From an uncultured Acidobacteriota bacterium (GTDB taxonomy: Bacteria; Acidobacteriota; CAIWXX01): a DNA stretch of 52,641 nucleotides. The position numbers and the translations under genes were made by a program. Shown here piece after piece: positions 8,612-37,474 of the stretch. How positions within the stretch are numbered: the first letter of the stretch is position 1; each line of letters starts with the position of its first letter. Below the pieces are notes generated by a model. The model did no database searches. It saw only the letters and a list, made by a program, of their open reading frames with translations, and was not told the origin of the DNA. The stretch is taken from NCBI GenBank assembly GCA_903916735.1, contig CAIWXX010000045.1, positions 1 to 52,641 on the forward strand, read 5' to 3'.

Positions 8612-11600
8612 GTGCCGGATGTAAGAGACCGATTCCCGCCGGGAGCTCGGATCCGAGAGTACGAGATTATCGAGCGGATCGCACAGGGCGGGATGGGCGC
8701 CGTTTACAGGGCGCGGCATGTGTACCTGGAGGAGGAGCGGGCGATCAAGGTCATCCGCGCCGGACTCGCCGAGGATGTCACTCCGATTGAAAGATTCATC
8801 CGTGAAGCGAAGATCCTGGTGCGACTGCGGCATCCCAACCTGGTTCAACTCCATGAATTCGGCACGCTGGAAGACGGATCATTCTTCATGGTGATGGAGT
8901 TTTGCAGTGGCGAGAGTGTCGCACAGCGGCTCCAGCGTGTCCAGCGACTTCCGATTGAACCGACAATCGCAATCGTTCGCGAAACGGCCCTTGGGCTCCA
9001 GGCCGCCCACGCCCAGGGAGTTGTTCACCGGGATATCGCCCCTGACAACCTGATCCTCGTCAAGGCCGAAGGCGATCGGGAAATCACCAAGATCATTGAT
9101 TTCGGGATCGCGAAGCCCGTCGCCGAAGATCTGCAGCAGCAACAAACCCTTGCTACCGGCTTCTTCATCGGGAAACCGCAATACTGCAGCCCTGAACAAT
9201 GCGGGATGCTGGAGCGGGGAGAGCACATCGATCACCGTTCCGACATCTACTCACTCGGCGTGACCTTCTATCAAATGTTAACCGGCAAGCTGCCCTTCAT
9301 CGCCGATAGCCCCTACGCACTCCTGCTCAAGCACGTGAACGAAGCGCCTCCCGCTCCCTCTTCCCACTTCCCCGAAGGACAGTTCCCGGCGGAACTGGAC
9401 CGTATTATCCTTCGCACTCTGGCCAAGAAACGCATCGACCGCTATTCCTCGATGGAAGATCTGCTGGCGGATCTCGACGAGTACTCTCCCCCCGCCGAAG
9501 CCAAGCCGAAGCCCAAAGCTATACTCACCGGCCTTCGCCCTGGAACCCTTTTCGCTGAGCGATATCGTATTGAGCGCCAGCTCGGAAAAGGAACACTCGG
9601 CGCGAATTTCCTGGCGATGGACACCCTCGTGGGCATTCCTGTGGTTCTAACGGTCCTGGATCCCAAAATTGCAGGCCATCAGCAGGTTATGGAGCAACTG
9701 ACAAAGGATGTGAACCTCACTCGCACCGTGACGCATCCAAATATCTGCCGTGTCTATGACCTCTACCGGCACGAGAACCTCGCCTACCTCACCATGGATT
9801 TCATCGATGGCCGCACGCTGAACGCCGTCTTACGCTCCGAAGGCGCCCTCCCCCTTCCTGTCGCTCTACCGATCATCCGGCAGATCACGGAAGCCTTGCA
9901 CGCACTCCACCAGGCCGGGCTGACTCATAGCGCTCTCAGTCCGCAGAATATCGTCATCGATGATCACCGCCGGGTATTCCTCATGGATGTCGCATTGACA
10001 CATGCCATCGCGGAGTGTCGCACAACCAAGGATGGAGCAGCCGCTGGTGATGCCAATTACAAGGCGCCGGAATTGCACGAAGGGAAAGATCCGGACCCTC
10101 GCTCAGACCTCTATTCACTTGGTGTGATCATGTTTCACATGCTCACCGGCCAGCCACCATTTGTGGCAGCTGATCCGATTAAGACAGCTGTCATGCACTT
10201 GCAATCAGTCCCGCCAAAGCCGTCCAGTATCAAACCTGATGTTCCGCTGGAACTCGACAGGATCATTCTGCAGCTTCTCAGCAAGGACACGGCCGGCAGA
10301 CCTGGGAGCGCCGAGGAAGTGCTGCGGGAGTTGGATGCGCTGGCTGTTCCGGCCGAGGTGGGAGATGCCAGCCGCGAAGTGCTGGTCCACAGGATGATGA
10401 TGGAAGGCCGGTATTCCCATGCCGCCAAGATTCTCAGTTCGTTGATCGAAACGGATCCGGGAAATGCTCAGTGGAAAAAATTGCTGGATACGGCTCTCAC
10501 CGAAAAGGCTTCGAAGGATGTTCGTCGAGCGAAACGCCTCATTAGAGAGAAGCAGTTCAAGCAGGCCGATATTTTCCTGGCTCGCATCGGAGCCGCCCGC
10601 ATTCCCGGCGCCCGCGTCAGCGCTCAGGTGAAAAAACTCCGAGAACAACTCGATCAGGAGATCAATGCCGCCGTCGATTTGTATTGCAATGAGGCTGAAC
10701 AAGGGCTGAAATCGGGCAACAAGACTGAGGCACTTTGCAGTCTGGAAGCTGCATTGGAAATCAAAGCCGTCGACCCGCGACTGGAAAAATTGAAAAGCAG
10801 AATCAACCAGCTCAAGCAGGCGCCCTCCTCGGCAGATGCAGACCTCAAGCTCACGCCTCATGACACGCTCACGCATGACCTCGAAGAAGCGGCCCGGCTT
10901 CAGCGTGACGAGAGATTACAGACGGCTCTGGAGAAGATTATTTCAATTCTGGAGCGTGACCCTGAGAATGAGAGAGCCCACGAATTGGAAATCAGCATCA
11001 GAGTATCGATTGAGGAGAAGGAGCTTTCACGGATCCTCGCGGAGCTTGTCGGAGCCGCGATCGGACTCTTGACTTCGGAAAGAGGCAACGAGTTGCCGGA
11101 GGCTTTGAAAGCCCTGCATTCGAGCGCCGCCGATACCAGTTATGAGCGCGATGTCGAAGTTCTCCATGCGGATTTACAGGCGTTTTCTGAAATGATCAGC
11201 ACCAGTCGCTACCAGGAAGCATTGACATTCGTCCGAGAGATGTCGATGAGACACAGGCTCATCCGACCGCATGAGAGGGTTCTCTGTGACTATGCCACGA
11301 AACTCCTTGAAGGTCATCAGACGCTTGTGTTCAGCGCGTCGCTGTCAGAAGGCATCCAGGCATTCCAGCAAAAGCGGTGGGAAGCCGCACGCACGTTTTT
11401 CGGAGAGGCACTCCAGGTCCGACCCGATGACCAATCGGCACAGCAGTACCTGACTGAAGCAGAGGGAAAACTGGACAATGCGACACGGATTCAGAAAAGG
11501 CTCCGCTCGACACTGTACCAGTTAGAACTGGCGGCGAACATGCAGAGCTGGGATGAAGTGCTGCGCCTTTGCGCCAAAGCCCTGGAACCCGAGTTCGCCG

Positions 11601-12556
11601 AATGCATGGCGGCGAAGGAGGTGCAACAGATTCGCCAATCAGAGGATCGAGCCCGCACCGGTCGAATCCAAACAGCCAGCATGCGTGCAGCACAATTGAC
11701 GGCCGAAGGCAATCTGCTGGGGGCGCGAGAGTTCTACAGAAAAATCCTCGAATGGGTCCCTCAAAGTCCACTCGCATTGGCTGGTATCCACGATGTCGAG
11801 ACCATGCTGCAAAGCGCGTTTCGCTCAAGCCTTGAGACGGGTGAGCGGTTTGCTCAGGAGGAGCAGTGGGAAGAAGCACTGACGTCCATCAAAGAGGCCT
11901 TGGCCATAGAGCCTCACGACAAGAGTGTTCAGAAAAAAATCGCGGAAATCCACGGCCGCCTCGATGCTGAAAGAAAGGCTCGAGATCTCTTTCGTAAGAA
12001 TGCGATTGCCGGCCGCAAACTGTTTGCGGGTGGAAATGTCGATGCTATCCAGAAGGCGCTATTTGAGTGTGAAAGATGCATCTCCGATCATGCACATCTG
12101 GATGATTTGCGGATCGAGCTCGGCGCTCTTCGCGAAGATGCGCAGAAAAATATCGAAAGAGAGAAGACGAAACTGAAACTCATAGAAGGAGTCATCGCAT
12201 CAGCGCGGAATCTCCGAGCAACCGGCGAGCTCGAAATAGCCCTCGAAAAACTCCTCGACCTCTTGAAGGCCATACCCAATCATCCCGACGCGCTCGCATT
12301 GAAGACTGAAATCCAAAATCAGATCAATCAAGAGAGGAAATGCCGGCAACAATTCGTGGACGACTCGCAGCGATGCAGCCGATTGATCCTGACCGGAGAT
12401 CTCGATGGGGCTCAGAAGGCCTTTCTTTCCTGCCAGGAATCTCTACCGCTCGGAATGGGACGACTCAATGATCTGAGCATCGAACTGGCGGCCCTCGAAG
12501 GCGATCTCCACGAAGCCACCGGCAAGAAAAAAAAGCAGCGCCAGCCTGACCTCTGA
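8612..12556 (+). CDS. Tandem Ser/Thr protein kinase - pseudokinase with long TPR-like helical tail
   Basis: A 1314-residue soluble protein starting at GTG 8612. Kinase 1 (about 14-290) looks active: glycine loop IAQGGMGAVY, beta-3 Lys46 (AIKVI), HRD with Asp141 (VVHRDIAPDN), DFG at 163-165, and SPEQ plus DIYSLG. The usual Lys after HRD-L is Ala, a variant seen in other bacterial kinases. Kinase 2 (about 313-580) keeps the fold (LGKGTLGANF, YKAPEL, DLYSLGVIMFHML). It has lost key residues: beta-3 Lys is Thr347 (VVLTVL), HRD is HSA (Ala441) and DFG is DVA (459-461). It should be a catalytically dead regulator. Residues about 590-1314 are alpha-helical with repeated TPR-like patterns (ALEIKAVDP, ALQVRPDDQSAQQYL, ALAIEPHDKSVQKKI). 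There is no transmembrane segment, unlike many PknB-type kinases. No partner phosphatase or FHA gene lies nearby. Confidence 0.93.
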   Translation: MPDVRDRFPPGARIREYEIIERIAQGGMGAVYRARHVYLEEERAIKVIRAGLAEDVTPIERFIREAKILVRLRHPNLVQLHEFGTLEDGSFFMVMEFCSGESVAQRLQRVQRLPIEPTIAIVRETALGLQAAHAQGVVHRDIAPDNLILVKAEGDREITKIIDFGIAKPVAEDLQQQQTLATGFFIGKPQYCSPEQCGMLERGEHIDHRSDIYSLGVTFYQMLTGKLPFIADSPYALLLKHVNEAPPAPSSHFPEGQFPAELDRIILRTLAKKRIDRYSSMEDLLADLDEYSPPAEAKPKPKAILTGLRPGTLFAERYRIERQLGKGTLGANFLAMDTLVGIPVVLTVLDPKIAGHQQVMEQLTKDVNLTRTVTHPNICRVYDLYRHENLAYLTMDFIDGRTLNAVLRSEGALPLPVALPIIRQITEALHALHQAGLTHSALSPQNIVIDDHRRVFLMDVALTHAIAECRTTKDGAAAGDANYKAPELHEGKDPDPRSDLYSLGVIMFHMLTGQPPFVAADPIKTAVMHLQSVPPKPSSIKPDVPLELDRIILQLLSKDTAGRPGSAEEVLRELDALAVPAEVGDASREVLVHRMMMEGRYSHAAKILSSLIETDPGNAQWKKLLDTALTEKASKDVRRAKRLIREKQFKQADIFLARIGAARIPGARVSAQVKKLREQLDQEINAAVDLYCNEAEQGLKSGNKTEALCSLEAALEIKAVDPRLEKLKSRINQLKQAPSSADADLKLTPHDTLTHDLEEAARLQRDERLQTALEKIISILERDPENERAHELEISIRVSIEEKELSRILAELVGAAIGLLTSERGNELPEALKALHSSAADTSYERDVEVLHADLQAFSEMISTSRYQEALTFVREMSMRHRLIRPHERVLCDYATKLLEGHQTLVFSASLSEGIQAFQQKRWEAARTFFGEALQVRPDDQSAQQYLTEAEGKLDNATRIQKRLRSTLYQLELAANMQSWDEVLRLCAKALEPEFAECMAAKEVQQIRQSEDRARTGRIQTASMRAAQLTAEGNLLGAREFYRKILEWVPQSPLALAGIHDVETMLQSAFRSSLETGERFAQEEQWEEALTSIKEALAIEPHDKSVQKKIAEIHGRLDAERKARDLFRKNAIAGRKLFAGGNVDAIQKALFECERCISDHAHLDDLRIELGALREDAQKNIEREKTKLKLIEGVIASARNLRATGELEIALEKLLDLLKAIPNHPDALALKTEIQNQINQERKCRQQFVDDSQRCSRLILTGDLDGAQKAFLSCQESLPLGMGRLNDLSIELAALEGDLHEATGKKKKQRQPDL

Positions 12557-13474: not shown

Positions 13475-14857
13475 TCAGTGCAGTAGCACTCTCTCAATAC
13501 TCTGCCCATCTTTCCGGCGTGCATCAGCCCATTTCAGCAGTAATGAGAAAACGAAACCGCAGAGGCCCAGGCCGATGAACATGAGCATCGTGGATGAATA
13601 ATCGATGATGCTCTCGCCGGCGGCATTGACGGTCGTATGAGCGTCGGCGATCTTGCCGGCAAGATAGGGGAACAGCATGAGTCCGACATTCTGTACATAA
13701 CCAACCGCACCGAAGGCAGTTCCAAGACGGCTTTCAGGCACCATCATCGGAATGGCCGCCCAGAGGGCAGCCGGAACAAGCGACAGGGCAATACCGACGA
13801 CGAAGATCGGCACAACAGGGGCGAAATGAGTGTAGCCGAGCAGCCAGTGCGAAGGGATCAGCAGAAGCGAGCCGATGACCATCAAGGTCGCCCGCTTGCC
13901 CTTGTGATCGACGAACCATCCGAAGATCGGAGTGAAGATCATTGTGCCGAGAATCAGAGCCGATGTATACATCCCCGCCTTCTCGACGGCGTAACCGAAT
14001 TTTTGGACCAGAATATCCGGAGCATACGCTTGGAATGGAAAGACGGCCGAGTAGAAAGTCACGCAGAGGAGGGAGATAAACCAGAAGGATACATCGAAGC
14101 TGAAAGCTTCCCGCAGGACGAACTTTTCCTCTGGAGCGCCGACTCCGGTTCTGTTCATGCCGGGCGCTCCAGGGTGCCCGATCGCCGATTTCTCCAGCAT
14201 CAGATAAATAAAGAAGGTCCCGAACCCGGCCAGCATGATGACAGCGGCAAACCAGAGCGATCCCCGCAGCCCGAACCAGCGAGCTGCTGGAGCCTGGATA
14301 TTGAGAGCGAGAAAGGTACCAAGGCGCATGATCGTGAGGTTAAGCCCGTAAGCAAACGCCAGTTCCTTGCCTTTGAACCAGCGAGCCAGCACCTTGTTGT
14401 TGACGACTAGAATCGCTTCCGCTCCAACCCCATAGATCATTCGCCCGAGCAGCATGATCTTGAGGGTCGTGCTGGCCTGTGGAAAGAAAGCTGTGTGCAA
14501 CCATGGATCAAGTGGCCCGAGCAGTCTCGGCAGGCCATGCCATGCCCCTAGCGCTGTCAGTGCGGCTCCGAGGAAACAGAGAAAGCCGTAGAAAATACCG
14601 GAGACCTTGAGGCCCAGCCAATCGACAAGAACGCCGGCAAACAGGAGCATCAGAAAAAAAACGTTGGCAACCGCATAGAACGAGAAAAGCAAGCCGTATT
14701 CAGAGCCGGTGAAGCCGAGCTCCTGTTTGATGAGCGTGCCGAGTGGAGTGATCGAGTCGTAGATGTAGTACTGAGCAAAGCAGATCAAGCTCATGATCAC
14801 GAGCACCAGCCAGCGATATACGGGCGAAAGTCCTCTTTTTGGTTCGTTGGAATCCAT
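13475..14857 (-). CDS. Major facilitator superfamily transporter
   Basis: A 460-residue protein with about 12 hydrophobic helices and the loop 2-3 type motif FAGVLVDWLGLK plus a second-half equivalent FGWFVDHKGKRATL. The two six-helix halves are separated by a hydrophilic loop around residues 220-245. The ATG at 14857 is the sensible start: it lies 4 nt after the stop of the REC-GGDEF gene, so it is translationally coupled to it; upstream codons in the same frame only read through that gene antisense of its true frame. The wording of TM1-2 (SLICFAQYYIYDSITPLGTL; YGLLFSFYAVANVFFLMLLF) recalls MFSD1-like or oxalate/formate-type carriers, but the substrate cannot be assigned. Its place at the end of a chemosensory operon may mean that it moves a compound linked to the sensed signal (inference). 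Confidence 0.85.
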   Translation of the reverse strand: MDSNEPKRGLSPVYRWLVLVIMSLICFAQYYIYDSITPLGTLIKQELGFTGSEYGLLFSFYAVANVFFLMLLFAGVLVDWLGLKVSGIFYGFLCFLGAALTALGAWHGLPRLLGPLDPWLHTAFFPQASTTLKIMLLGRMIYGVGAEAILVVNNKVLARWFKGKELAFAYGLNLTIMRLGTFLALNIQAPAARWFGLRGSLWFAAVIMLAGFGTFFIYLMLEKSAIGHPGAPGMNRTGVGAPEEKFVLREAFSFDVSFWFISLLCVTFYSAVFPFQAYAPDILVQKFGYAVEKAGMYTSALILGTMIFTPIFGWFVDHKGKRATLMVIGSLLLIPSHWLLGYTHFAPVVPIFVVGIALSLVPAALWAAIPMMVPESRLGTAFGAVGYVQNVGLMLFPYLAGKIADAHTTVNAAGESIIDYSSTMLMFIGLGLCGFVFSLLLKWADARRKDGQSIERVLLH

Positions 14858-14861
14858 CAGC

Positions 14862-15788
14862 CTATGAGTCTCCCTTCTTGACTTTGGATATGCAGACCTG
14901 ATTCCGGCCGCTCTTTTTTGCTTCATAGAGGGCATCGTCGGCCTGCCTGACAAGTTCATCAGAATCGGATGGCTCAGCCACAAAACAGTCGGAGATCCCG
15001 ATGCTGATGGTGACGGGCACGAGTGTTCCTTCTTTTTCAATACGCATAATTTCGCAGTTTTTGCGGAGTTTCTCAGCGAGTGTAGCGCCGCTTTCCATGG
15101 ACGTCGCCGGGCAAAGCACAACGAACTCCTCCCCGCCGTATCGCGCCGCCAAATCCACCTTCCGGATGTTGCTTTTAAGGATTCCCGCGACCTCCTTGAG
15201 AACATAGTCGCCGAAAGGATGGCCGTAAGTGTCATTGATTCTCTTGAAGCGGTCGATATCGAGCATGATCAAGCAGAGGTTCTGCTTGTAACGATGCGTC
15301 CGCTCAAATTCGATTCGCATCGTCTCATTGAAGCTCCGCCGATTGGCAAGTTGCGTGAGTTCGTCAATCGTCGAGATGAGCTCCAGGTGGTTGACGAGCC
15401 GATGCAGTTGATCCTGAAGTTCTTTTATCCGAAGCATGGACTTAACGCGGGCCAGAAGCTCATGAACATCGAATGGCTTCGTGAGATAATCATCCGCGCC
15501 CATCTCGAACCCTTTTATCTTGCTCGCCGTGTCCCCCTGGTTTGTCAGTAGTATAACCGGCGTAAAGACAGTCCCTGAATACTGTTTGATTTCGCGGCAG
15601 AGTGTCAGCCCATCCTTCTTGGGCAGGACGATATCCAGCAGAACGAGATCCGGTTTTTCAGAGATGAATATCTGCCAACCCTCTTCCCCGTCCGCTGCGC
15701 CAAGAGCCGTATGACCTCCGCCACGGAGTGCAAACTGGACCTTCATCGATTGGGTCGCACTGTCTTCGACGAGAAGTATCTTTCCCAT
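14862..15788 (-). CDS. REC-GGDEF response regulator, diguanylate cyclase (WspR/PleD-like)
   Basis: 308 residues. The receiver domain (1-122) has the acidic pair Glu8-Asp9, phospho-acceptor Asp52 (LVLLDIVLPKKDG), Thr82 and Lys104 (YLTKPF). A coiled linker (120-140) leads to the cyclase domain (about 140-302) with the active-site GGEEF at 218-222, the substrate motifs DIDRFKRINDTYGH, and an intact inhibitory site R-K-V-D (209-212) five residues upstream. It should make c-di-GMP from two GTP when phosphorylated and be product-inhibited. Its position 15 nt after cheB in a CheA-hybrid operon matches wspR, so the kinase CheA is its likely phosphodonor. The stop is followed by the MFS gene after 4 nt. 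Confidence 0.95.
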   Translation of the reverse strand: MGKILLVEDSATQSMKVQFALRGGGHTALGAADGEEGWQIFISEKPDLVLLDIVLPKKDGLTLCREIKQYSGTVFTPVILLTNQGDTASKIKGFEMGADDYLTKPFDVHELLARVKSMLRIKELQDQLHRLVNHLELISTIDELTQLANRRSFNETMRIEFERTHRYKQNLCLIMLDIDRFKRINDTYGHPFGDYVLKEVAGILKSNIRKVDLAARYGGEEFVVLCPATSMESGATLAEKLRKNCEIMRIEKEGTLVPVTISIGISDCFVAEPSDSDELVRQADDALYEAKKSGRNQVCISKVKKGDS

Positions 15789-15803
15789 TCTTCTTCACCC
15801 GGT

Positions 15804-16829
15804 TCATGAAAGCGCATCGACGAGAGCCTGTGCCATCTCATCGATTCTTAAGACACGATCGGCTGCTCCGGATTGAATAGCTCGCTGTGGCATCCCGAAA
15901 ACAATCGATGTGGATTCATCCTGCACCATTGTTTTCCCGCCCATTGATTTGATACGCGACAAGCCGCTGACGCCATCGTTCCCCATCCCGGTAAGAAGGA
16001 CGGCCAGCGACATCGGCCCGTAGGAGTCGGCAACGGCATTGAACAGGTAGTTGATCGACGGCCGAGCGCCTTCTATTTCAGCGCCTTCTTTCAAGCCGAC
16101 CCGGCCGTCGCTCGTCACTCCCGTGTGAACGCTTTCAGCAGCGATATAGATGGTACCGGCGTGCAGGAGCTCGCCGTGCTCGGCCACTTTGATCGGGTTC
16201 GGCGAGCTGACCGACAGCCATTCAGCCATGCCACCGATGAACCCGGGAGTCATATGTTGCGCAACGACAATCGGGACTGGAAACCGTGCGGGAAGGCGTG
16301 TGAAAATGGCATGTAGCGCACCCGGGCCTCCGGTTGAAGACCCGATGGCCACGATGCGAACTCGATAGGAAGCCGCCGCCATCGTATGGAGTGAGATCGG
16401 GGTGGGCAGGCGAGTGACCGTCTTTCTCCGAGTCACCTTCAGGCCGGACATCAACCTGACCTTCGTCAAAAGCGCGGCCTTGATTGATTCGTAGTCCTCC
16501 CCGACTTTAGGTTTGATCGCGATGCTCAATGCACCGGCCTGAATGGCATCGAACGCAAGCTTATCGGCGTGAGATTGAATCGCGCTGGACATGATCAGAA
16601 TCGGGGTGGGCCACGTTTCCATGATCTTGCGTGTGGCGTCGACCCCGTTCATTTCCGGCATCATGATGTCCATGGTGATGATATCTGGTTTCAATTTTTC
16701 GGCGAGATACAAAGCCTCCTTGCCATCCCTGGCGTAACCGACAACCTGAATATCCGTCTCGTGCGAAAAAACCTCGATCAATATGCGTCTTACAACCGAC
16801 GAATCGTCAACAATGAGGATCTTGATCAT
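15804..16829 (-). CDS. cheB: CheB chemoreceptor methylesterase / glutamine deamidase (WspF-like)
   Basis: 341 residues, normal CheB length. The receiver domain (1-125) has Asp8-Asp9, phospho-acceptor Asp54 (ITMDIMMPEMNG) and Lys107. The esterase domain (about 155-340) carries the catalytic triad Ser165 (IGSSTGGPGAL), His192 (VAQHMTPGF) and Asp285 (TGMGNDGVSGL). It removes methyl groups from receptor glutamates and so resets the chemoreceptor encoded at 19.6-21.3 kb. In Wsp systems loss of this enzyme locks the pathway on. It lies downstream of cheA after a 157-base gap, and 15 nt before the diguanylate cyclase gene. Confidence 0.95.
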   Translation of the reverse strand: MIKILIVDDSSVVRRILIEVFSHETDIQVVGYARDGKEALYLAEKLKPDIITMDIMMPEMNGVDATRKIMETWPTPILIMSSAIQSHADKLAFDAIQAGALSIAIKPKVGEDYESIKAALLTKVRLMSGLKVTRRKTVTRLPTPISLHTMAAASYRVRIVAIGSSTGGPGALHAIFTRLPARFPVPIVVAQHMTPGFIGGMAEWLSVSSPNPIKVAEHGELLHAGTIYIAAESVHTGVTSDGRVGLKEGAEIEGARPSINYLFNAVADSYGPMSLAVLLTGMGNDGVSGLSRIKSMGGKTMVQDESTSIVFGMPQRAIQSGAADRVLRIDEMAQALVDALS

Positions 16830-16986
16830 CCGCTTTACCTTGACCTGTCACAGGTGAAAAACGCCGAGTAACGGCTCCCAGCGTGGCTTTGTGCAAATGA
16901 CTTTCTCGCGCTCCCTTTTCATATTCATGCCGCAATTTCGTTGATAACGTATACTCGTTCCAGCCCGCATCGCAACAGTTTTCTAG

Positions 16987-19449
16987 TCAATCGGTGAGCT
17001 GCTCGATGGTCTGCAGGAGTTTTTCCTGATCGAAGCTGCTCTTGACGATAAAGGCATCCGCCCCGACTTCAATCCCGCGACGCTTGGCCTCGGCCGTCGC
17101 CAGCGACGTGACGAGTATCACCGGCAATCCCTTATGCTGTGGACTTCCTTTGAGTCTCTCAGTCAGTTCAAATCCATCCAGGCGCGGCATTTCGATATCT
17201 GTGAGAACGAGATCGCATGTTTCGGATTGAAGGACGGACAGTGCGTCCATTCCGTCGATGGCCAGCAAAACGTGGAATCCAGCTGTTTCGAGGATATTTT
17301 TTTCGAGCATACGCGTCGTGATTGAATCGTCCACAACAAGCACAGTTTTTGTTCGCTTGATTGACTGCTTCCTCGTCGCGGTTTGACGAACGGGCGCATG
17401 GACCTGCAGGCTGGCATTCACAAGCTCGGCGACATTCAGAATCATGACGATTTCGCCGCTTCCGAGAATCGTCGCCCCGGCCACATACCGGACTTTGATG
17501 ATCGGCTTGCTCAGCGATTTGAGAATGACCTCCTGCTCGCCGAGCAGCTCGTCGACTAGAAACGCCACCCTCTTTTCGACCGATCCGAGGATGACGGCAA
17601 CCAGTTTTTCGGCGGGCGGTTTTTGGCTTTCTTCAAGCCCCAGCAATCGGGCCATGCGCGCGAGCTGGATCGGGAGATCCTCGATCTGAATGGTTTCCGA
17701 AGTCCCCAGCCGGCGGATATCGCTTCGGGAAACTCGCCGGATCTGTTCAACCGAACTGATAGGGAGGATGAAAACCTGCCCGCCGAGCCGGACGAGCAGC
17801 CCCTGAAAAGTCGAGACGGTCAGTGGGAGCTGCATGATGAAGGTCGTGCCGGCGCCAGGAATGGTGGTGACATCCAATGTTCCATTCATACGTTCGACGG
17901 CGGATCGGACGACATCGAGCCCGATGCCGCGACCGGAAATGTCATCGATGATCGGCGATGTTGAAAAGCCGGACTTGAAAATGTGATTGATGATTTCCCG
18001 TTCGCTGAAGGTTCTTGCTTCCTCTTCAGACATGAATCCCCGCTTGATCGCTTTTTGCTTCACCGCGTCAAGATCGATGCCTGTCCCATCGTCCTGAACC
18101 GAGATGATGATGATATCACCCTTCTGCCGGGCCGATAAATGGAGCTTCCCTTGCGCGGGCTTTCCATGCCGAGTCCGTATGTCGGGGGATTCGATTCCAT
18201 GGTCAATCGCATTTCGGATCAAATGCATCAGCGGGTCCTTCAGGGCCTCGATGAGCTTCTTGTCGAGAGCGCACTCACCGCCTCCGGTCGTCATCACAAC
18301 CTGCTTCTTTTTGACTTCGCACAGGTCGCGAACCATCCTGTAGAAGCTGTCGAAGACGAGGCCGACCGGGAGCATTCTGATTTTCTTTATCTCTTCCTGC
18401 AGTTCGCTCGTGAGAGTGTGGAGGCGAGACATGTCGACGGAAAACACCTTCATGAATTTCTTCATGGTCCGGCTCACCGCGCGGGCTCTTTCCTGCCCTG
18501 TTTCGTACATCTTCTGGCTGCTGCCATTCAAGACGGACTTCATCGCCCTTCGCATCTCCGCCATAAATTTTTCAAGCTGGGTCGTGGCCGAGTAAATTCC
18601 TTTGATATCCTCGTGGAGTTGGGAGATCTTGATTTTTGCGACGAGCAGCTCGCCGGCTTGCGCCAGCAGGCTATCAAGCTTGGATGTGCTGACTCGAATC
18701 GTCTCCTTGGCGAGAAGCGCATCATCCAACCGTCGATCACGCTTCCGACGATCTTCCGGTCCAGCCCGGCGGTTGTCACCCATCCTCTTCGGGACGTCGG
18801 GATCGAGGGTAGACGGGTCGGTCGGAGGCGGCGGTTCGAGTTCAACAACCTGTGTCTGAGCTGAAGGTTGGGACTCTTCACCGGTCGCCACTTCGGGAGG
18901 CGGTTCGGAGTCCTGTTTCTTTGCGGTCCCGGACGATGGCACCGATTCGCTCGTCGCTGGAGCCTCGCGGCCCTGTTCCACCTGTACCAGCTTCCCGGCT
19001 CCGGCTTTGGCCGCCTTACTCGATGCGGTCTTTTTTTTTATAGGAGCGGCATCTCCTCCGGATCTGACCTTCTCGATCTTTTCAACAAACTCATGAACCT
19101 CCTGCTCAGAAAGACTCCCGCCGGCCAACCGTGCGGTCATGGCGGCGCTGAAAAAGTCGACACTTTTGAAAAGAACCGAGAACATCGGCTTCGTCATCGG
19201 ACGGCCGTTTTTCACTTCGGCCAGCAGGGTCTCCATCACGTGGGCGACCTCTTCGATCTCCTTGATCTCAACGGCTCGAGCCGCACCCTTCAGGCTATGA
19301 GCTTCGCGGAAGATCTGATCAACCAACTCGGCTGTGTCTCCGCCTCCTTCCAACGCCAGGAGGGATTTATTCAGCGATTCCACACGTTCATCTAGCTCAA
19401 CCTTGAAGGTTGCGAGAAGCTGCTGTAGGAAATCCTGATCAGAAGACAT
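16987..19449 (-). CDS. cheA: CheA-type hybrid histidine kinase with C-terminal receiver (WspE-like)
   Basis: 820 residues. The HPt domain (1-110) carries phospho-His51 in REAHSLKGAAR. A variable Pro/Glu-rich linker (about 130-240) replaces the usual P2 docking domain. The dimerisation helices (about 245-390) begin TIRVSTSKLDSLLAQAGELL. The ATPase domain (about 395-570) shows HLIRNAIDHGIESP (N box), DDGTGID (G1), FKSGFSTS and DISGRGIGLDVVRSAVERM (G2). The CheW-like domain (about 570-690) and then a receiver (about 697-820, LVVDDSITTRML, acceptor Asp in LVLTDIEMPRLDG, and KSSFD) end the protein. CheA fused to a receiver is typical of the Wsp, Pil/Chp and Frz classes. In this operon it should phosphorylate CheB and the REC-GGDEF protein. 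Confidence 0.95.
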   Translation of the reverse strand: MSSDQDFLQQLLATFKVELDERVESLNKSLLALEGGGDTAELVDQIFREAHSLKGAARAVEIKEIEEVAHVMETLLAEVKNGRPMTKPMFSVLFKSVDFFSAAMTARLAGGSLSEQEVHEFVEKIEKVRSGGDAAPIKKKTASSKAAKAGAGKLVQVEQGREAPATSESVPSSGTAKKQDSEPPPEVATGEESQPSAQTQVVELEPPPPTDPSTLDPDVPKRMGDNRRAGPEDRRKRDRRLDDALLAKETIRVSTSKLDSLLAQAGELLVAKIKISQLHEDIKGIYSATTQLEKFMAEMRRAMKSVLNGSSQKMYETGQERARAVSRTMKKFMKVFSVDMSRLHTLTSELQEEIKKIRMLPVGLVFDSFYRMVRDLCEVKKKQVVMTTGGGECALDKKLIEALKDPLMHLIRNAIDHGIESPDIRTRHGKPAQGKLHLSARQKGDIIIISVQDDGTGIDLDAVKQKAIKRGFMSEEEARTFSEREIINHIFKSGFSTSPIIDDISGRGIGLDVVRSAVERMNGTLDVTTIPGAGTTFIMQLPLTVSTFQGLLVRLGGQVFILPISSVEQIRRVSRSDIRRLGTSETIQIEDLPIQLARMARLLGLEESQKPPAEKLVAVILGSVEKRVAFLVDELLGEQEVILKSLSKPIIKVRYVAGATILGSGEIVMILNVAELVNASLQVHAPVRQTATRKQSIKRTKTVLVVDDSITTRMLEKNILETAGFHVLLAIDGMDALSVLQSETCDLVLTDIEMPRLDGFELTERLKGSPQHKGLPVILVTSLATAEAKRRGIEVGADAFIVKSSFDQEKLLQTIEQLTD

Positions 19450-19567
19450 GAATGCATCCCATTCTGAGTTCCGGATCCAGCGTTCCGGCTGTCACGCATT
19501 CAACTCGATATCGAGCGCGAGTCCTACCGGTGTTCTGGAACCGCATGTGCTCCATGACAGCTTTCGG

Positions 19568-21340
19568 CTAAATCTTGTATTTGGCGACGAGGTCATTCAT
19601 CCAGTTGCATTGTTCAGACAGGTTCTGCGCGATTCGCACAACCTGTTCGGCCGATTCCTGCGTTTCGCTGGCAGCCTGCTTGATCTCGCTCATCGCGACG
19701 GAAATCTGGCTCATCCCGATCGTCTGCTCCTTGACGGATGACACAATCTGCTCAGCGGCAATCGCGGCCTGAGTGATTGTTTCGAGCAGGTGATGGATCA
19801 CCTTGCCGGCCTGATTGACAAGATGAACCCCGCGATCGACTTCCTTGCTCCCCTGCTCCGTCACCATCACGGCCGCATTCGTTGCCTTCTGGATATCGTT
19901 CAGGATGGATCGCACCTGTGCCGTCGCCTGTTTGCTCTGCTCGGCGAGATTCCGCACTTCATTGGCAACCACGGCAAAACCCTTGCCATGTTCACCGGCG
20001 CGCGCCGCTTCAATCGAAGCATTCAATGCCAGTAGGTTGCTCTGTTCGGCAACATCGTTAACGGTCGAGATAATCTCCCCGATCTGCTGTGTTTGCTCGG
20101 AGAGAGCCAGGATGTTTTCGGCGATCGATTCGACCTTATCCTTGATCTGGGACATGCCCTTGATCGATTCCTCGACTGCCACCTCGCCGCTTTTCGACAC
20201 CTCAATGACCTTCTTTGTGGAGTCGGCGACGGAGCTCGCCAGGTTGCTGGTATGTTCCGATGTCAACCGGACTTCATCGACAGTGGCCGAGATTTCGTTG
20301 ATCGAAGAGGCCTGTTCAGTGCCGAGACTCGACTGCTGAGTTGTCGCCGTCAGGATCTGTGATATAGCCGATGTAATGCTCACAGTGGAATTCTTCACCT
20401 GCCCGGTGATCGACTTGAGGCTATCGATCATCTGGTTCAGATGACGGCTGAGGATGGCCAACTCATCATCGCCTTGTGCGTGTATCACCGCCGTCAGGTC
20501 GCCTCGCCCGATCTTTTCTGTAAACTGGACGAATTCCTCGACTTTCTCTTGCAGACGCTCCTTGGCGTGCTTCTCCGACTGCATCAGCTCTTCGATGCGG
20601 TCCTTGCCGATGAGAGAGTTCATGGAGGCCTGCAGATTTTCAGCAAGCCGGTTGATGCTCTCAGCCAGCACCCCGACCTCATCGTGTGATTTGATCGTTA
20701 TGCGCTTGCTGAGATCGCCTTCCGCCATGAGTCGCACGATTTGAGCCGTGTGTTCGACGGGTGTCACGAGTCGCTGGGCGAAAAAGTAAGCGACCACGAC
20801 ACAGATGATGAGGAGCAGGCCGGTCGCTCCAAGAATCCACTGCTGCAACTCCCTGCCGATGCGGTTTTGTTCGGCATAGCTGAAAACGATGCGCGCGTAC
20901 CCGAATGTCTTCATCCCGTCTCTGGCTGAGATAATCGGCATGTAGAGATCGAGATAATCATACCCACGATACGAAAACTTTTCAGGGATCGGTTCGTTGA
21001 GCTGGGAGTCGTAGTTCGGCTGGTGCTCTCGAGCAGTCCCGGAATCGCCCGTCTCGCTGAGCACCTGCTTTTTCGCATCCTGAAGAGCCACATAAGTTAC
21101 ATCCCGGCCGACACTGCCCGCTTTCACTCCGGTGATGGCGGTTTGTTGTACTTCAGGGTCGTTGAAAATGACCCCGGCAAGAGCGAAGGCGCTAAGGTTC
21201 TTCACCATCGCAATGCCTTTAATTTCAAACTGCCGTTGCATTGCCCCGCTCACCTTGTATTCAACAAGGATTGTGAACAGGGCGGAGATGGAGATGAGCA
21301 GGCCGCTTGTTCCGGCAATCAGCTTTTGCCTAATGGTCAT
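19568..21340 (-). CDS. Methyl-accepting chemotaxis protein with periplasmic sensor and HAMP
   Basis: 590 residues. TM1 is about 8-28, the periplasmic sensor about 29-167 (a single Cache- or CHASE8-like fold is possible: [20 protein letters not shown] and [15 protein letters not shown]), and TM2 is 169-188. HAMP (about 190-242, [20 protein letters not shown]) is followed by a second HAMP-like stretch (about 268-310, [10 protein letters not shown]). The long cytoplasmic signalling rod has the conserved hairpin tip [20 protein letters not shown] and [18 protein letters not shown]. Kinase control through CheW and CheA follows from family knowledge. The start is preceded by the periplasmic-binding-like gene (gap 11 nt), which suggests that this receptor reads the state of that protein. 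No CheR-binding pentapeptide is present at the C-terminus (ends LVAKYKI). Confidence 0.93.
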
Positions 21341-21351
21341 ACGTCACATCC

Positions 21352-21888
21352 TCATGGCTGGACCAACACGGTCGCATCATTCAAGATCTCCGGCGGGATC
21401 TGGATGTCGAGAGCCGCCGCGGCCCGCAGGTTGAGCAACACCTGGACCTTGTTATCCTTTATGACAAGTGCATAGACAGCCCCGTCCTGAACGGCCTCCG
21501 CGCTATCACCGATGACAGGGATCTTCTCGAGCATGCACTGCTGAATGATGAATTTCCGGGTATCCGGTGTCGAGATAATGGGATCAGGGAGCAGCAGGAT
21601 TGCTTCTACCTTCTCCTTGTTCAACAGATTCCGGAGACCTGAACCGACATCGCCGAGCGATTTGACGTTGGCGGCCTTCGACCACACCTGATAGCTCATC
21701 GCGGCTATGTCGATTTCACTGAGGTCGGCCTGCTTTTGATCCTTGTTACACAGGATTCCGAGTTTTGTCTTCGCCTTGAATACCTGCTTGAAGAAAAACA
21801 CCTGCTGACGATTAGAGACGTTCTGCGCCAAGAGACCAGAGGCCGCGAACAGCACCGCCAGTATCGCACTCCCCAAACCCCTGAACAT
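21352..21888 (-). CDS. Exported protein resembling part of an ABC-type substrate-binding protein
   Basis: 178 residues from the ATG at 21888, chosen because AAAGGAGGT lies 4-5 nt upstream; an in-frame ATG nine codons earlier is inside the gap after cheW and lacks such a site. A signal peptide (about 1-20, AILAVLFAASGLLAQ) marks it as periplasmic. The rest is one alpha/beta unit: LGILCNKDQKQADLSEIDIAA, then VKSLGDVGSGLRNLLNKEKV, VEAILLLPDPIIS, FIIQQCMLEKIPVIGDSAEA and DGAVYALVIKDN. This resembles the family of substrate-binding proteins often found alone (PF04392-like), but is only half the usual length. It sits between cheW and the chemoreceptor, so I infer a ligand-binding accessory of that receptor. 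Similarity is from memory. Confidence 0.65.
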   Translation of the reverse strand: MFRGLGSAILAVLFAASGLLAQNVSNRQQVFFFKQVFKAKTKLGILCNKDQKQADLSEIDIAAMSYQVWSKAANVKSLGDVGSGLRNLLNKEKVEAILLLPDPIISTPDTRKFIIQQCMLEKIPVIGDSAEAVQDGAVYALVIKDNKVQVLLNLRAAAALDIQIPPEILNDATVLVQP

Positions 21889-21911
21889 GTGACCTCCTTT
21901 GACCAAGTGTA

Positions 21912-22541
21912 TCATTCATCCTCCACCAACATCTTACGATCGGCGAGAAGCTCCATGAGGTTTAATACTGCCACAGAATCGGATGTGGTTCCCGAAATAT
22001 ATTCACTCTTGATTGTGGACAAATTCAACTTGACATCGTGGATCTCAGTAGGAAAGTAGTGAGAAATACCAAGCACCTCATCAACGAGCAGTCCCATCCG
22101 GCCTCCACTATCCTCGACGATTAATATGCTCTCGCATTGACCGGACTCCTCATCCGCCTGCACGGAGAAGAAGACACGTAAATTGACAACCGTGAAAATC
22201 TGCCCTCGGACGCTGATGACCCCCATGATGAAAGGCGGCGTTCCCGGGACAGGGGCATATTGCCCGAGCGACTGGATTTCGACAACCTGCACAAGGGGAA
22301 CTGCATAACGCTGGTCAGCAAGACGGAAAACCAGGACAACAACGGATTTCTCCTGCGACTCCTTCTCGACACTCTTCGCCAGGGCGCGAGCGCGAGCCTG
22401 TAGAATCTCCTGAACCCGCTCCGGAGATTCGGCGGAACCGGCCGGCGCCATCCCGGACGTGACGGCAAGGGGCTTGCGAATCCTGTCAAAGTGGGTTGCT
22501 TCATTCTCACTGATGGAGGATTCTAATTTTTTTAATGCCAT
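21912..22541 (-). CDS. cheW: CheW-family coupling protein (second copy, with N-terminal extension)
   Basis: 209 residues. A charged N-terminal extension of about 65 residues (predicted helical, QEILQARARALAKSVEKESQ) precedes a CheW domain (about 65-205): VVLVFRLADQRYAVPLVQVVE, PGTPPFIMGVISVRGQIFTV, and GLLVDEVLGI. CheW links receptors to CheA. With the shorter cheW at 23984-24502 it gives two adaptors per operon, as WspB and WspD in the Wsp pathway; the extended copy may correspond to WspD. The gene starts 12 nt after cheR and is followed by the periplasmic protein gene after 23 nt. Confidence 0.92.
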   Translation of the reverse strand: MALKKLESSISENEATHFDRIRKPLAVTSGMAPAGSAESPERVQEILQARARALAKSVEKESQEKSVVVLVFRLADQRYAVPLVQVVEIQSLGQYAPVPGTPPFIMGVISVRGQIFTVVNLRVFFSVQADEESGQCESILIVEDSGGRMGLLVDEVLGISHYFPTEIHDVKLNLSTIKSEYISGTTSDSVAVLNLMELLADRKMLVEDE

Positions 22542-22553
22542 GAGTCCAAGGGT

Positions 22554-23987
22554 TTATCGAAGGAGAGTCCTGAGAGCGTCCTTCAGCTGGCCGACGGACA
22601 CTCGTTCGCCTTCGCCGATCAGAGTGTCGTCAGGCAATTTTTCAATCAACCGCGTCATACTTTTGTAGCATTTCTCCGCCTTGCGGGACTCACCGGTACG
22701 CCTGTAGAGGCATCCGAGTTGATAGAGGAGAAGTATCGAATCGGCGTCCAGAAAAAGCCCCTTTCGAGCGTAGTCGAGCGCTTCCTCCACATGTCCTGTG
22801 GCTTCGCTGATCATCGAACACATGCGGTATGCTTCGACATTCAAACCATCGGCCTGCAGGAGACGATGGATCCAGAGCCCGGCCTCTTCGTATTTACCGC
22901 TTCCAGCGTATATCTCCGCAATAAGAAGATACAGCAAAGAATTGAACGTGCCTTTGGTCGCAAGCGGGAGGAGTGCGCTGAGGGCCTCTTCACCACGACC
23001 CGTCGCGAATAGAATCCGAGCTTCTGCCAGGGGATCTGTATCAGGAGGCGTCGCCGGTGCGGGAGGCGGCGGAGGGACCGCAGGCTTCGGCGCCACAACC
23101 GATTTCGTCTCGGCCGGCATCAGAGGAATAACCGTCGTTGCGACCGGCCTCTGAAAAAAAATCAAACCGCGGTCATTAACCTGCCGGAGGCGCTTGCTGA
23201 CGAGATGAGTCGGTTCCGAATGTCCCAACAGGAGATATCCCCCTTCAACCAGAGTATCACAGAATCGATGACTGATTTCACGAATGCGATCTTCATCAAA
23301 GTAGATCAGTACATTTCGGCACAGGATGAAATCCATATCGTGAATGCCGTGACCGATGGATGGATAGTCGTCGGCAACGAGGTTGAGAGGGTTGAAAACC
23401 ACACGATCGCGCACCGGTTTGATGATCTGGAACTTGTCGGCCATCGGTTTGAAATATTTCACGACCTTCTCTGGAGGCGTCGACCGAAAGGACCATTTAG
23501 TGTAAATGCCCATGCGGGCGCTTTGGAGAGAGGCCAGATTGATATCTGTCGCGATGATGTAAATTTTCCAGTCTTGTACCTCCCCAAGGAGCTCCATCAA
23601 CGTGATCGCCAGGCTGTAAGGTTCTTCGCCTGTCGAGCAACCCGCCGACCAGATGCGTATCTGCCGACTCCCCTGCTCTCTCTTGCGCACCACCAATTCG
23701 GGCAGAAGGCTGCTCTCCAGCAGCCTCCACTGCTCCTTATACCTGAAGAAATATGTCTCACCGATCGTCACTGCATTGATCAGTCTTTCGTCGAGCAGAG
23801 GATCGCTTTCGGGGGAGTGCAGCGCCTTATAATAATCACGAATGTGCGGAAAACCCGACTCCGCCGTCTTTCTCTGAATGATCCGCATCAAATCCTGCTT
23901 CTTGGCGTCGTGAAAAAAAATCCCTGTGCGAAGCCGCACAAAATCGCGGAATTTCTTGAAGTCATCATCGGTGTACGCCGAGCTCAT
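22554..23987 (-). CDS. cheR: CheR receptor methyltransferase with C-terminal TPR region (WspC-like)
   Basis: 477 residues. The N-terminal helical domain (1-75) and the SAM domain (about 76-275) show the CheR signatures: NAVTIGETYFFRYKEQW, IRIWSAGCSTGEEPYSLAI, IYIIATDIN, and MDFILCRNVLIYFDEDRI; it ends GHSEP. A Pro/Ala-rich linker (about 285-325) leads to TPR-like helices (about 330-470: AEARILFATGRGEEALSALL, YRRTGESRKAEKCYKSM). CheR methylates receptor glutamates using SAM. CheR fused to TPRs is the hallmark of WspC, which supports the Wsp assignment. The start overlaps the end of the first cheW gene by 4 nt (ATGA). Confidence 0.95.
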   Translation of the reverse strand: MSSAYTDDDFKKFRDFVRLRTGIFFHDAKKQDLMRIIQRKTAESGFPHIRDYYKALHSPESDPLLDERLINAVTIGETYFFRYKEQWRLLESSLLPELVVRKREQGSRQIRIWSAGCSTGEEPYSLAITLMELLGEVQDWKIYIIATDINLASLQSARMGIYTKWSFRSTPPEKVVKYFKPMADKFQIIKPVRDRVVFNPLNLVADDYPSIGHGIHDMDFILCRNVLIYFDEDRIREISHRFCDTLVEGGYLLLGHSEPTHLVSKRLRQVNDRGLIFFQRPVATTVIPLMPAETKSVVAPKPAVPPPPPAPATPPDTDPLAEARILFATGRGEEALSALLPLATKGTFNSLLYLLIAEIYAGSGKYEEAGLWIHRLLQADGLNVEAYRMCSMISEATGHVEEALDYARKGLFLDADSILLLYQLGCLYRRTGESRKAEKCYKSMTRLIEKLPDDTLIGEGERVSVGQLKDALRTLLR

Positions 23988-24502
23988 GTTGTTCGCTTCT
24001 CAATTGAGATCGCGGCCGTGACACGCTGCGTCATTTCGGCGGCCGTAGAAACGTCGTTGGCCGAGATGAGTTTCGACAGGTCGACACAAAAGATGATCTG
24101 GTTCTGTTGCTTGATCAAGCCGTTCACAAAAGAGAGGGACATATCAAATTCACGGGGAGCATCAACCTGCTCTCTCGTGTATTCTTCCACCTGAGCAACC
24201 GCATCCACGACGAATCCCAGAGTGCGTTCACCGGTACGCACAACCAGTATTCGGTGGTTCAGGCCGTATGTCGTCGGAGGCAAATTCAGCATACGACGAA
24301 GATTGAGGATTGGGAGAATTGTTCCCCGTAGATTGATGACACCTTCGATATGATCATGGTGAGCGGGAGTGCTCGTCAGAGCGACCATCCAGATCACTTC
24401 GACGACGTCTTCGAGGGCGAGCGCGTATTTCTGGCCGGCAATGTCGAAGAGCACATACTTCGACGTTGTGCTGATCGAGGATCGGTTAAGGCTGGATTCC
24501 AT
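23984..24502 (-). CDS. cheW: CheW-family coupling protein (first copy)
   Basis: 172 residues, normal CheW length plus a short tail. The CheW fold covers about 14-155: YVLFDIAGQKYALALEDVVE, THDHIEGVINLRGTILPIL-like HIEGVINLRGTILPILNLR, and ERTLGFVVDAVAQVEEY. It is the first gene of the chemosensory operon, about 45 bases downstream of a TTGACA/TATGAT promoter. An AGGGGG stands roughly 11 nt before the ATG, a somewhat long spacing. Its stop overlaps the cheR start. Confidence 0.93.
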   Translation of the reverse strand: MESSLNRSSISTTSKYVLFDIAGQKYALALEDVVEVIWMVALTSTPAHHDHIEGVINLRGTILPILNLRRMLNLPPTTYGLNHRILVVRTGERTLGFVVDAVAQVEEYTREQVDAPREFDMSLSFVNGLIKQQNQIIFCVDLSKLISANDVSTAAEMTQRVTAAISIEKRTT

Positions 24503-34176: not shown

Positions 34177-35331
34177 CTATCGATTGAGCGCGCTCTGGAA
34201 CATGCTATCGTATTTCGCCAGAATTTTATCCCAGGTGTAGTTGGCGAGGACATAACGTTTGCCGGAAGCTCCGAATTGCGATGCCTGATCGCGACGTCGG
34301 AGAATGTACTGCAGCGCCTCCCCAAACTCCTCAAAATTTCCATAATAGAGTCCCGCATTTCCACGCAGGCAATGATCACGCAGAACCTCGCAATGACCAT
34401 TCACCAGAACAGGGGTTCCGCAGGCAAGTGATTCGAGCGCGATGATCGAACGGCTCTCAGCCGTCGATGGGAGGACGGTCACCGAGGCATCCCGGTAGGC
34501 GCCGAATTTTTCCTCGTCGATGAGGGTGCCGAGCGCGTGGATCTCGGGGTGCTTCGGCGGCTGCAGCGGCAACATGCCCATCAGGTAGAGGCGGCAGAAC
34601 ATATAATGCACGCGGAAACGGATAAAATATTCAATCACCTCAGCGCACTCATTACCTGTATCAACCCCGCCGGCGTAGAGAATGCAGGGGGCTGCCAGCC
34701 GCATCTTCGACTTCATATGCGCGGGCAATGTCACTCCAGGCCCGGCCACCAGCCGATGTTTCGCCGACGGCCGGAAAAATTCGGTGACAAATCGCTCTTC
34801 AAGATGTGAGTTGAAAATCAATCCCTCAGGCCGCTGGAAGACATCGCGATAAATTCGCAAAGAGGCGGCTGGTTCACGATGAGCCAGAGGGACAAGAATG
34901 ATGGGTTTCTCAACGGCGTGCAAGCCGGCGACGGTCAGGCAGGACTGATAAGCGAAAAAAAGAATCACATCGAAAAGATCCTGTTCTCCGCGAAGCGCCT
35001 CCACCAATTCCGGACAGAAAGGCCCCCGCTCTTCCAGCCACTGCGCTTCTTCGATCTCAGTGTGCTGCTGAGAGGAGATCTGATGTGACAATCTTCTAAA
35101 GCTCTCGGCGTTCCGTTCACGAATCGGTTGGAAACGACGGATCGTCATTCCTTCATCATCTTCGACACCGACAGCGTAATGTCGGCGCCACGTGAGATGA
35201 TCGAGCGCCGTAGTCGTATAGACGGTGATGAAGTGTTTTCGGGCGAGCCTGCGCAGAGTTTCGCGACAGAGATTTTCAGGGCCGTCAGCAATCTCTTTCC
35301 CAAAGCGTTGGATGACAACGGCCAGTTTCAT
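34177..35331 (-). CDS. GT4-type glycosyltransferase (pair 1, copy A)
   Basis: 384 residues with two Rossmann-like domains. N-terminal MKLAVVIQRFGKEIADGPEN closely matches the start of the protein at 37630-38865, so the two are paralogues. The C-terminal nucleotide-sugar domain has ILYAGGVDTGNECAEVIEYF, ALGTLIDEEKFGAYRDASVT and the E-x7-E element TAESRSIIALESLACGTPVL, followed by VNGHCEVLRDHCLRGNAGLY. In contrast to its paralogue, the usual G-R-I-D in the donor loop is AGGVD and the family's NGGAE is ADGPE, so activity could be altered. It is last in a four-gene operon and overlaps the preceding gene by 4 nt. The likely job is adding a sugar to an O-antigen or exopolysaccharide. Confidence 0.87.
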   Translation of the reverse strand: MKLAVVIQRFGKEIADGPENLCRETLRRLARKHFITVYTTTALDHLTWRRHYAVGVEDDEGMTIRRFQPIRERNAESFRRLSHQISSQQHTEIEEAQWLEERGPFCPELVEALRGEQDLFDVILFFAYQSCLTVAGLHAVEKPIILVPLAHREPAASLRIYRDVFQRPEGLIFNSHLEERFVTEFFRPSAKHRLVAGPGVTLPAHMKSKMRLAAPCILYAGGVDTGNECAEVIEYFIRFRVHYMFCRLYLMGMLPLQPPKHPEIHALGTLIDEEKFGAYRDASVTVLPSTAESRSIIALESLACGTPVLVNGHCEVLRDHCLRGNAGLYYGNFEEFGEALQYILRRRDQASQFGASGKRYVLANYTWDKILAKYDSMFQSALNR

Positions 35332-36410: not shown

Positions 36411-37474
36411 ATCCTCGCCGCCACCTGGTTCACATAGTCAAGCAGGAGGCGACCGGTGATCGCGGGATCGTAGGAAGCGAGCACCTCGCGCTGGCCTCGG
36501 AGAATCTCCTCACGAAAATCTTTATCCCGCCTCAATGTCTCGGCGGCTTTGGCCATGGCGCCATAGTCCTTTTCCTTGAAAAGAATGCCGGCTCCTCGCA
36601 AAGTCTCCCCCACGGCGCTCGATTGCCATGCAATGACGGGCAGCCCGAAGTGGAAGGCCTCAAGCAGCGGGACGCAAAATCCTTCATGTTCGCTCATGCA
36701 GATAAACAGGTCGCTCATTCGGTAGTAGGCCACGACCTCTTCGTTCGTCACATGGCCTGTGAAATGAACCCGCTGGACGCCGAGCTCAGCGACAAAATCT
36801 TTGAGAGCCCAGTAATAGCGTTCGAACCCCTGGTAATCGCCCACGATAAACAGCCGGCTGTCGGCGTTATGCCATTTCTGGTAGACATGGAAGACACGGA
36901 TGACTTCTTCGATTTTTTTATTAGGGATGATACGGCCGACAAAAACAAATGTGTAGCCGGAATCGCCGTGAATCCTGTGTGGCATCCGGCTCTCGCGCCT
37001 GAATTTGGAAAAGTCCACGATGATGGGGAGAACTCCGGTTGGGGAGAATCCGGATTCCTCAAGCTCGCGACGATTGAAATCGCTGTCGCCGAGCCCGAGA
37101 TCAACAACGGGAGCGAAACCGCGCAGTTCCCTCCGGCCGAGATAGCAGAGCTGAGCCAGCAGCATGTTTGTGTCGAGGAAGTACTGCATCGGCGTGATGT
37201 TGTGATAGATCATGATCTTGCGATCCGACAATTCGGGCACTATATGCGAAACGGGAGATCCGATTGAAAAGTGGAAGATGATGATGTTGTTGGGGGAAGA
37301 AATCTTCCGGTACAATTCGAACCTCTTCACATGACTCGCCATCCGCGGATGGTGAAGCTGGCAAAAGATGTCGCTCTCATGGCCGGCGTCGCGGAGAATG
37401 CGCTGGATCGCGAGTGTGTCGTCGCCGATGGCGTCGCCATAGCTGAGCGCCGTCAGAAGCTGGTGGACTCTCAT
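36407..37474 (-). CDS. GT4-type glycosyltransferase (pair 2, copy B)
   Basis: 355 residues, paralogue of the previous entry: DAIGDDTLAIQRILRDAGHE, IMIYHNITPMQYFLDTNML, TFVFVGRIIPNKKIEEVIRV, VHFTGHVTNEEVVAYYRMSD and SEHEGFCVPLLEAFHFGLP (E-x7-E). The shared wording runs through the whole length, indicating a tandem duplication followed by divergence. The gene begins about 155 bases after the stop of the glycosyltransferase at 37630-38865. Confidence 0.9.
   Translation of the reverse strand: MRVHQLLTALSYGDAIGDDTLAIQRILRDAGHESDIFCQLHHPRMASHVKRFELYRKISSPNNIIIFHFSIGSPVSHIVPELSDRKIMIYHNITPMQYFLDTNMLLAQLCYLGRRELRGFAPVVDLGLGDSDFNRRELEESGFSPTGVLPIIVDFSKFRRESRMPHRIHGDSGYTFVFVGRIIPNKKIEEVIRVFHVYQKWHNADSRLFIVGDYQGFERYYWALKDFVAELGVQRVHFTGHVTNEEVVAYYRMSDLFICMSEHEGFCVPLLEAFHFGLPVIAWQSSAVGETLRGAGILFKEKDYGAMAKAAETLRRDKDFREEILRGQREVLASYDPAITGRLLLDYVNQVAARI

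Follow-up and report, generated by a model that had tools for sequence, protein, structure and literature searches.

An acidobacterial chemosensory operon outside the Wsp lineage with a half substrate-binding protein as putative receptor partner and a diguanylate cyclase as predicted output

The Che3 pathway of Rhodospirillum centenum is a chemosensory system of the alternative-cellular-functions type that is concerned with cyst development (PMC3868531), and its kinase CheA3, a hybrid of CheA and a receiver domain (REC), acts on the REC-PAS kinase CheS3 (PMC3868531; PMC2890560). The activation of receptors by substrate-binding proteins (SBPs) has published precedent (PMC9602780), and genes for single-domain SBPs, the function of which is unknown, are reported to lie often near genes for methyl-accepting chemotaxis proteins (MCPs) (PMC10805632). 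Here we describe an operon in which such a protein and an MCP are encoded side by side. It lies in a stretch of 52,641 nucleotides (contig CAIWXX010000045.1, hereafter the window) from the 5.37-Mb draft genome (G000) of an uncultured acidobacterium. Nine open reading frames (ORFs), all on the minus strand, run from position 24502 down to 13475; they are tightly packed, some overlap, and their order is CheW, CheR-TPR, CheW, exported protein, receptor (MCP), CheA-REC, CheB, REC-GGDEF and a carrier of the major facilitator superfamily (MFS). The Pfam domains of all nine products score above the curated cut-offs. We consider it probable that the operon specifies an SBP-coupled pathway with a receptor of 40 heptads (40H), that it belongs to a lineage with the order CheW-CheR-CheW-MCP-CheA-CheB, and that its diguanylate cyclase output is convergent with Wsp.

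A preliminary description, made from the sequence of the window, had assigned the operon to the Wsp type on the basis of its parts, and these (MCP, two CheW, CheR-TPR, CheA-REC, CheB and REC-GGDEF) are indeed all recognized by Pfam. The phylogenetic position was determined from a concatenation of CheA (P4-P5), CheB and CheR (36 rows, 970 columns). The CheR-TPR protein served as query for related operons, first in 60 and later in 396 genomes, an even sample of one phylum; other CheB loci of the same genome also entered the set, and a plasmid collection was searched with CheA and CheR as a source of proteobacterial operons. The Wsp references are plasmid- or chromid-borne (Azoarcus sp. KH32C, Mesorhizobium pMLb, Variovorax and Cupriavidus campinensis); a Burkholderia operon of Wsp order, for which the search after CheB gave no GGDEF, was an extra reference. 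The proteobacterial Wsp operons and an operon on contig C82 of the same draft genome formed one clade (support 100/100). The window operon grouped with that of G001 (acidobacterial metagenome-assembled genome JACPPM01, record JACPPM010000082), the sole same-family relative among the genomes searched, and this pair joined 15 other operons (99/96); a tree of a smaller set agreed with this placement. A constrained tree with the pair inside the Wsp clade was rejected by the approximately unbiased (AU) test with both the smaller (p=0.0075) and the larger set (p=0.0052), and membership of Wsp is thus not upheld. Placement among the flagellar and related set was also rejected (AU p=0.012), in agreement with the earlier expectation that CheA would not group with the flagellar classes. 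The Azospirillaceae plasmid operons L048 and L124 fall inside the window clade.

The order CheW-CheR-CheW-MCP-CheA-CheB is found in nearly all operons of the window clade. The gene order does differ from that of the Pseudomonas operon, as had been remarked, but it is the one usual in the lineage of this operon and not a rearranged Wsp. After CheB, the sister operons carry a REC-PAS, REC-kinase or REC-PAS-kinase-REC protein (identified by Pfam or by similarity), or else the stretch yielded no output; within this lineage, the window pair was alone in having a two-domain REC-GGDEF protein directly after CheB. The simplest reading is that the Wsp-type output arose separately in this lineage, convergent with Wsp. 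With a CheA outside the flagellar classes, a 40H receptor and a non-motor output, the operon would be of the alternative-function, non-flagellar (Che3-like) chemosensory type. The Wsp-clade operon of the same genome (G000:C82; L090:2145-13749) has the order MCP-CheW-CheR-CheW-CheA-CheB and ends with a second MCP gene; where Wsp has the WspR cyclase, its output is of the REC-SpoIIE phosphatase type. A third chemosensory lineage, separate in the tree from both Wsp and the window operon, is represented by L085 (G039:C8) and L188 (G371:C8), with the order MCP, CheB, CheR, CheA and a REC-GGDEF protein at the end.

The exported protein is, as had been proposed, half of an SBP, and its gene directly precedes that of the receptor. 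Residues 36-155 match positions 118-235 of the 293 in the ABC_sub_bind profile (5.1e-9), that is, the C-terminal half only; an N-terminal signal-peptide-like stretch of its own leaves a mature protein of about 160 residues. It is a homologue of RmSBP from Rhodothermus marinus, with an E-value of 2.3e-11 when a two-sequence profile was used and of 5e-8, over residues 22-178, for the exported protein alone. In a tree of C-terminal lobes, the exported protein, RmSBP and a set of single-domain SBPs of one other family of the phylum split off together with moderate support (87/86; 142 columns). G001 has the full operon with the exported gene at the same position, so of the two extra genes whose conservation had been at issue this one is kept. 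The two organisms belong to different genera; identities are 61% for the exported protein, the alignment being full-length and the signal peptide retained, 47% for the receptor and 58% for CheR-TPR. Otherwise the gene was absent from 16/16 other operons of its lineage, no orthologue was present in any other of the 396 genomes and no match was obtained in the plasmid collection; a scan of the whole collection returned the known relative only, which, with two peptide patterns used, is weak evidence for rarity. Single-domain SBPs in genomes of family f22, another family of the phylum (L009, L013, L019, L021, L027, L029, L036 and L039), do not adjoin sensors; that of L013 has a PepSY-like ORF and the end of a TonB-receptor-like ORF close by.

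A coupling of the exported protein to the receptor is suggested by several lines of evidence. Overlaps of 4 nt occur between CheW and CheR and between the second CheW and the exported gene, the latter is followed by the receptor gene after 11 nt, and this adjacency, with short gaps, is kept in the two genera. The full-length relatives of the exported protein were gathered by a search with that protein or by Pfam family. At 15/15 distinct loci, from eight families, the next gene encodes a sensor with HAMP and transmembrane (TM) segments at -8 to +27 nt (L010, L011, L012, L015, L016, L017, L018, L028, L031, L035, L037, L045, L102, L104 and L107); four of these loci come from one family, and hence not all are independent. 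The outputs of these sensors are of the histidine kinase, MCP-like or SpoIIE type. For L122, a further and weak match, the downstream stretch contained no ORF, and none of the conventional ABC_sub_bind genes unmatched by the exported protein has a HAMP sensor downstream. Such pairs of a full-length ABC_sub_bind gene and a HAMP sensor directly downstream make up a recurrent SBP-sensor module in the phylum. The sensor part of the receptor (TM-periplasm-TM-HAMP), compared with the 396 genomes, gave one match at 1e-20 besides the pair, G100:C51:34434 (1.5e-21); this sensor lies 5 nt downstream of an SBP that was found independently via the exported protein, and the receptor without HAMP still matches it (7e-10, among ten sensors compared). 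Sensing through the exported protein, one half of an earlier suggestion that the system senses and also moves a ligand, is thereby supported indirectly (adjacency, SBP-sensor linkage of the relatives, match of the sensor domains), and the most likely target of the exported protein is the receptor's Cache-like domain.

The receptor comprises a TM segment, a periplasmic domain (about residues 28-167), a second TM segment, HAMP and the MCP signalling domain. Compared with Tar and Tap of E. coli, which are of the 36H class, it carries an insertion of 14 residues on each of the two sides of the hairpin and therefore counts 40 heptads. A model of the N-terminal part (predicted local distance difference test, pLDDT, 73) matched the periplasmic domains of CitA and of LuxP-bound LuxQ in Foldseek, which suggests a single-Cache-like domain. 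Pfam detected no 4HB domain in the sensor part, whereas the three sister receptors that were scanned, all encoded in operons that lack the exported gene, have CHASE3 or 4HB domains. Assignment of the receptor to the CHASE8/YfiN type was considered and dropped. Residues 1-189 gave no Pfam match to CHASE8, and a match to a model of YfiR-associated kinases (7e-7) vanished when HAMP was removed; the apparent link to these kinases was thus due to HAMP.

The enzymes of the pathway have kept their catalytic and phosphorylation motifs. CheA has H51, N413, the G boxes and the Asp motif of its receiver, and the active-site motifs of CheB and CheR are present. The cyclase carries an active-type GGEEF motif (RKVDLAARYGGEEF at residue 209), with an intact RxxD inhibitory I-site five residues ahead of it. 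Domains and motifs support the proposal of a chemosensory pathway with cyclic di-GMP (c-di-GMP) as its output. In the scheme that we favour, the usual REC-kinase output of the lineage would have been replaced by REC-GGDEF in this family of Acidobacteria, and the receptor would have gained a Cache-like sensor domain together with a dedicated exported partner. The single-domain SBP would be secreted to the periplasm and dock on the Cache-like domain, either alone or with a small ligand between the two. Docking would change the array of 40H receptor, CheW and CheA, upon which CheA would phosphorylate the REC domain of the cyclase and set the level of c-di-GMP; adaptation of the receptor would fall to CheR-TPR and CheB, and tuning of the flux to the receiver domain of CheA. 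Binding of the SBP to the receptor and phosphotransfer from CheA to the cyclase, as well as the ligand, the sign of the response and the behaviour under control, are what we infer.

Several observations weigh against this scheme. The exported gene and the operon are combined in two genomes only, and the half SBP is without the lobe that closes on the ligand in ordinary SBPs. Soaking of RmSBP with metals and amino acids revealed no physiological ligand (PMC10805632). The model of the exported protein is of low confidence (pLDDT 58); its best Foldseek matches were RmSBP, with none below 1e-3, and the underlying alignment consisted of two sequences, so that the model supports the fold weakly. The window pair also forms the deepest split of its clade, on a long branch, and its exclusion from Wsp is therefore firmer than its fine position. 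A single lobe that cannot close on a ligand as a two-lobed SBP does would also suit a YfiR-like role, in which the exported protein would inhibit the receptor by sequestering it from the periplasmic side until an envelope or redox cue frees the inhibitor, no small ligand being involved. The layout, a small periplasmic protein and a membrane sensor controlling c-di-GMP, is the same, and the C-terminal third weakly matches YfiR/HmsC-like families. We regard this as unlikely, as these matches stay below the curated cut-offs (DUF4154 of Pfam, 8.6e-4 and 19.9 bits versus 24.9; YfiR models of NCBIfam, 0.003-0.005 and 16.9 bits versus 85) and ABC_sub_bind and RmSBP score far better. The receptor lost its resemblance to YfiR-associated kinases together with HAMP, and one of the two cysteines of the exported protein is kept in G001, so there is no conserved disulfide.

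That the gene is a bystander, or the remnant of a full SBP without a role in the pathway, would agree with a half protein present in only two genomes. It is hard to reconcile with the overlap with the second CheW gene, which points to translational coupling, and the short gap to the receptor gene, with a full-length alignment at 61% identity and a signal peptide kept across genera, with single-domain relatives in other bacteria, one of which has solved structures, and with the linkage of the full-length relatives to sensors; we hold it to be very unlikely. A wider proposal, in which single-domain SBPs are general co-receptors of chemoreceptors, the receptor Cache domain serves as the second lobe with the ligand held between, and in this case c-di-GMP is set via an independently evolved Wsp-type output, seems to us doubtful and rather improbable. 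Least credible, with hardly a chance of being correct, is that the operon is a genuine variant of Wsp, sensing a small ligand and transporting it as well. The shared parts (CheR with TPR, CheA with REC, REC-GGDEF output), the 40H receptor and an MFS start 4 nt past the cyclase stop speak for it, but it is contradicted by the tree, which rejects a placement in Wsp, by the gene order, which is that of another lineage, and by the distribution of the MFS gene.

The MFS gene may be co-transcribed with the operon in this organism. In G001, however, the cyclase gene is the last of the operon and the 3' end of a convergent ORF comes next, with no MFS gene there; the orthologue (80% identical) is on another contig. 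Copies that are 75-79% identical in G042, G033 and G029 stand alone among unrelated neighbours. The carrier gene is a downstream neighbour outside the conserved module. Its proposed inclusion in the system, and the moving of a ligand, are left without support by the relative's operon and the stand-alone orthologues. All nine genes were found at the places and on the strand first proposed (Table 1), with one correction: the MFS ORF listed from 15235 is too long, as it begins inside the cyclase gene, and the likely start is the ATG at 14857, behind GGGAG.

Table 1. Genes of the chemosensory operon and the downstream MFS gene; positions refer to the window.
Product	Coordinates	Strand	Length (aa)	Support (Pfam)
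CheW (first coupling protein), first operon gene	23984..24502	-	172	CheW 9.3e-32
CheR methyltransferase with C-terminal TPR repeats	22554..23987	-	477	CheR 2.9e-52, CheR_N, TPR_2
Second CheW, ~60-residue N-terminal extension	21912..22541	-	209	CheW 1.4e-28
Exported single-domain ABC_sub_bind protein (half SBP)	21352..21915	-	187	ABC_sub_bind 5.1e-9
Transmembrane receptor	19568..21340	-	590	HAMP 5e-22, MCPsignal 2.1e-38
CheA hybrid kinase: Hpt, dimerisation, HATPase, CheW, REC	16987..19449	-	820	Hpt/H-kinase/HATPase/CheW/REC
CheB, REC and methylesterase	15804..16829	-	341	CheB_methylest 6.6e-58
REC-GGDEF output response regulator / diguanylate cyclase	14862..15788	-	308	GGDEF 2.6e-49, Response_reg 2.7e-24
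MFS carrier	13475..14857	-	460	MFS_1 2e-30

Elsewhere in the window, positions 8612-12556 encode a 1314-residue protein with two tandem Ser/Thr-kinase-like domains followed by a long repeat-like region. By eye, an LplT-like MFS gene followed by a fusion of acyltransferase, acyl-carrier and AMP-ligase (41922-45805) resembles LplT-Aas plus an added carrier domain, and four glycosyltransferase-like genes in a row on the minus strand (34177-39000) are possibly a polysaccharide locus.

What is new is the combination of parts, and the operon context for single-domain SBPs. Structures of such proteins have been solved, but they have no assigned function, and no explanation had been given for the reported proximity of their genes to MCP genes. 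Here a half SBP lies in an operon that is complete and conserved and in which the receptor is defined and c-di-GMP can be measured as the output, which makes the role of the half SBP directly testable. The operon further points to an origin, outside the Wsp lineage, of a chemosensory pathway with a REC-GGDEF cyclase at its end; a Wsp-like list of parts alone is therefore no ground for annotation as Wsp.

Compared with described systems, the operon shares with Wsp of Pseudomonas (WspA-F and WspR) the presence of CheR-TPR, two CheW, CheA-REC, CheB and REC-GGDEF in one operon and a 40H receptor. It differs in the clade of its CheA, CheB and CheR, in the place of the receptor gene (between the second CheW and CheA, whereas it is first in Wsp), in the Cache-like sensor domain as opposed to 4HB, and in the added half SBP. 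With Che3 of R. centenum (CheA3, CheS3, CheY3) it has in common a CheA-receiver hybrid, two CheW, CheR, CheB and one MCP, and the REC-REC-PAS-kinase or REC-kinase outputs of the sister operons resemble CheS3, the tree including the related Azospirillaceae plasmid operons L048 and L124; the window operon has REC-GGDEF in place of CheS3/CheY3, plus the exported protein. RmSBP (PDB 5Z6V, 6K1W, 8WGK and others) is likewise a single alpha/beta domain equivalent to the C-terminal lobe of tryptophan/phenylalanine SBPs and its gene is reported to lie near an MCP gene (PMC10805632), but its identity to the window protein is about 20-25%. In LuxP-LuxQ an SBP gene also stands beside that of a HAMP sensor with a Cache/PAS-like periplasmic domain, the domain that the receptor model matches; LuxP, however, is an SBP with both of its lobes, and LuxQ is a histidine kinase of the hybrid type. 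In YfiR-YfiN, finally, a small periplasmic protein similarly acts on a membrane protein leading to c-di-GMP, whereas YfiN is itself the cyclase and the sequence link of the exported protein to YfiR is weak and sub-threshold.

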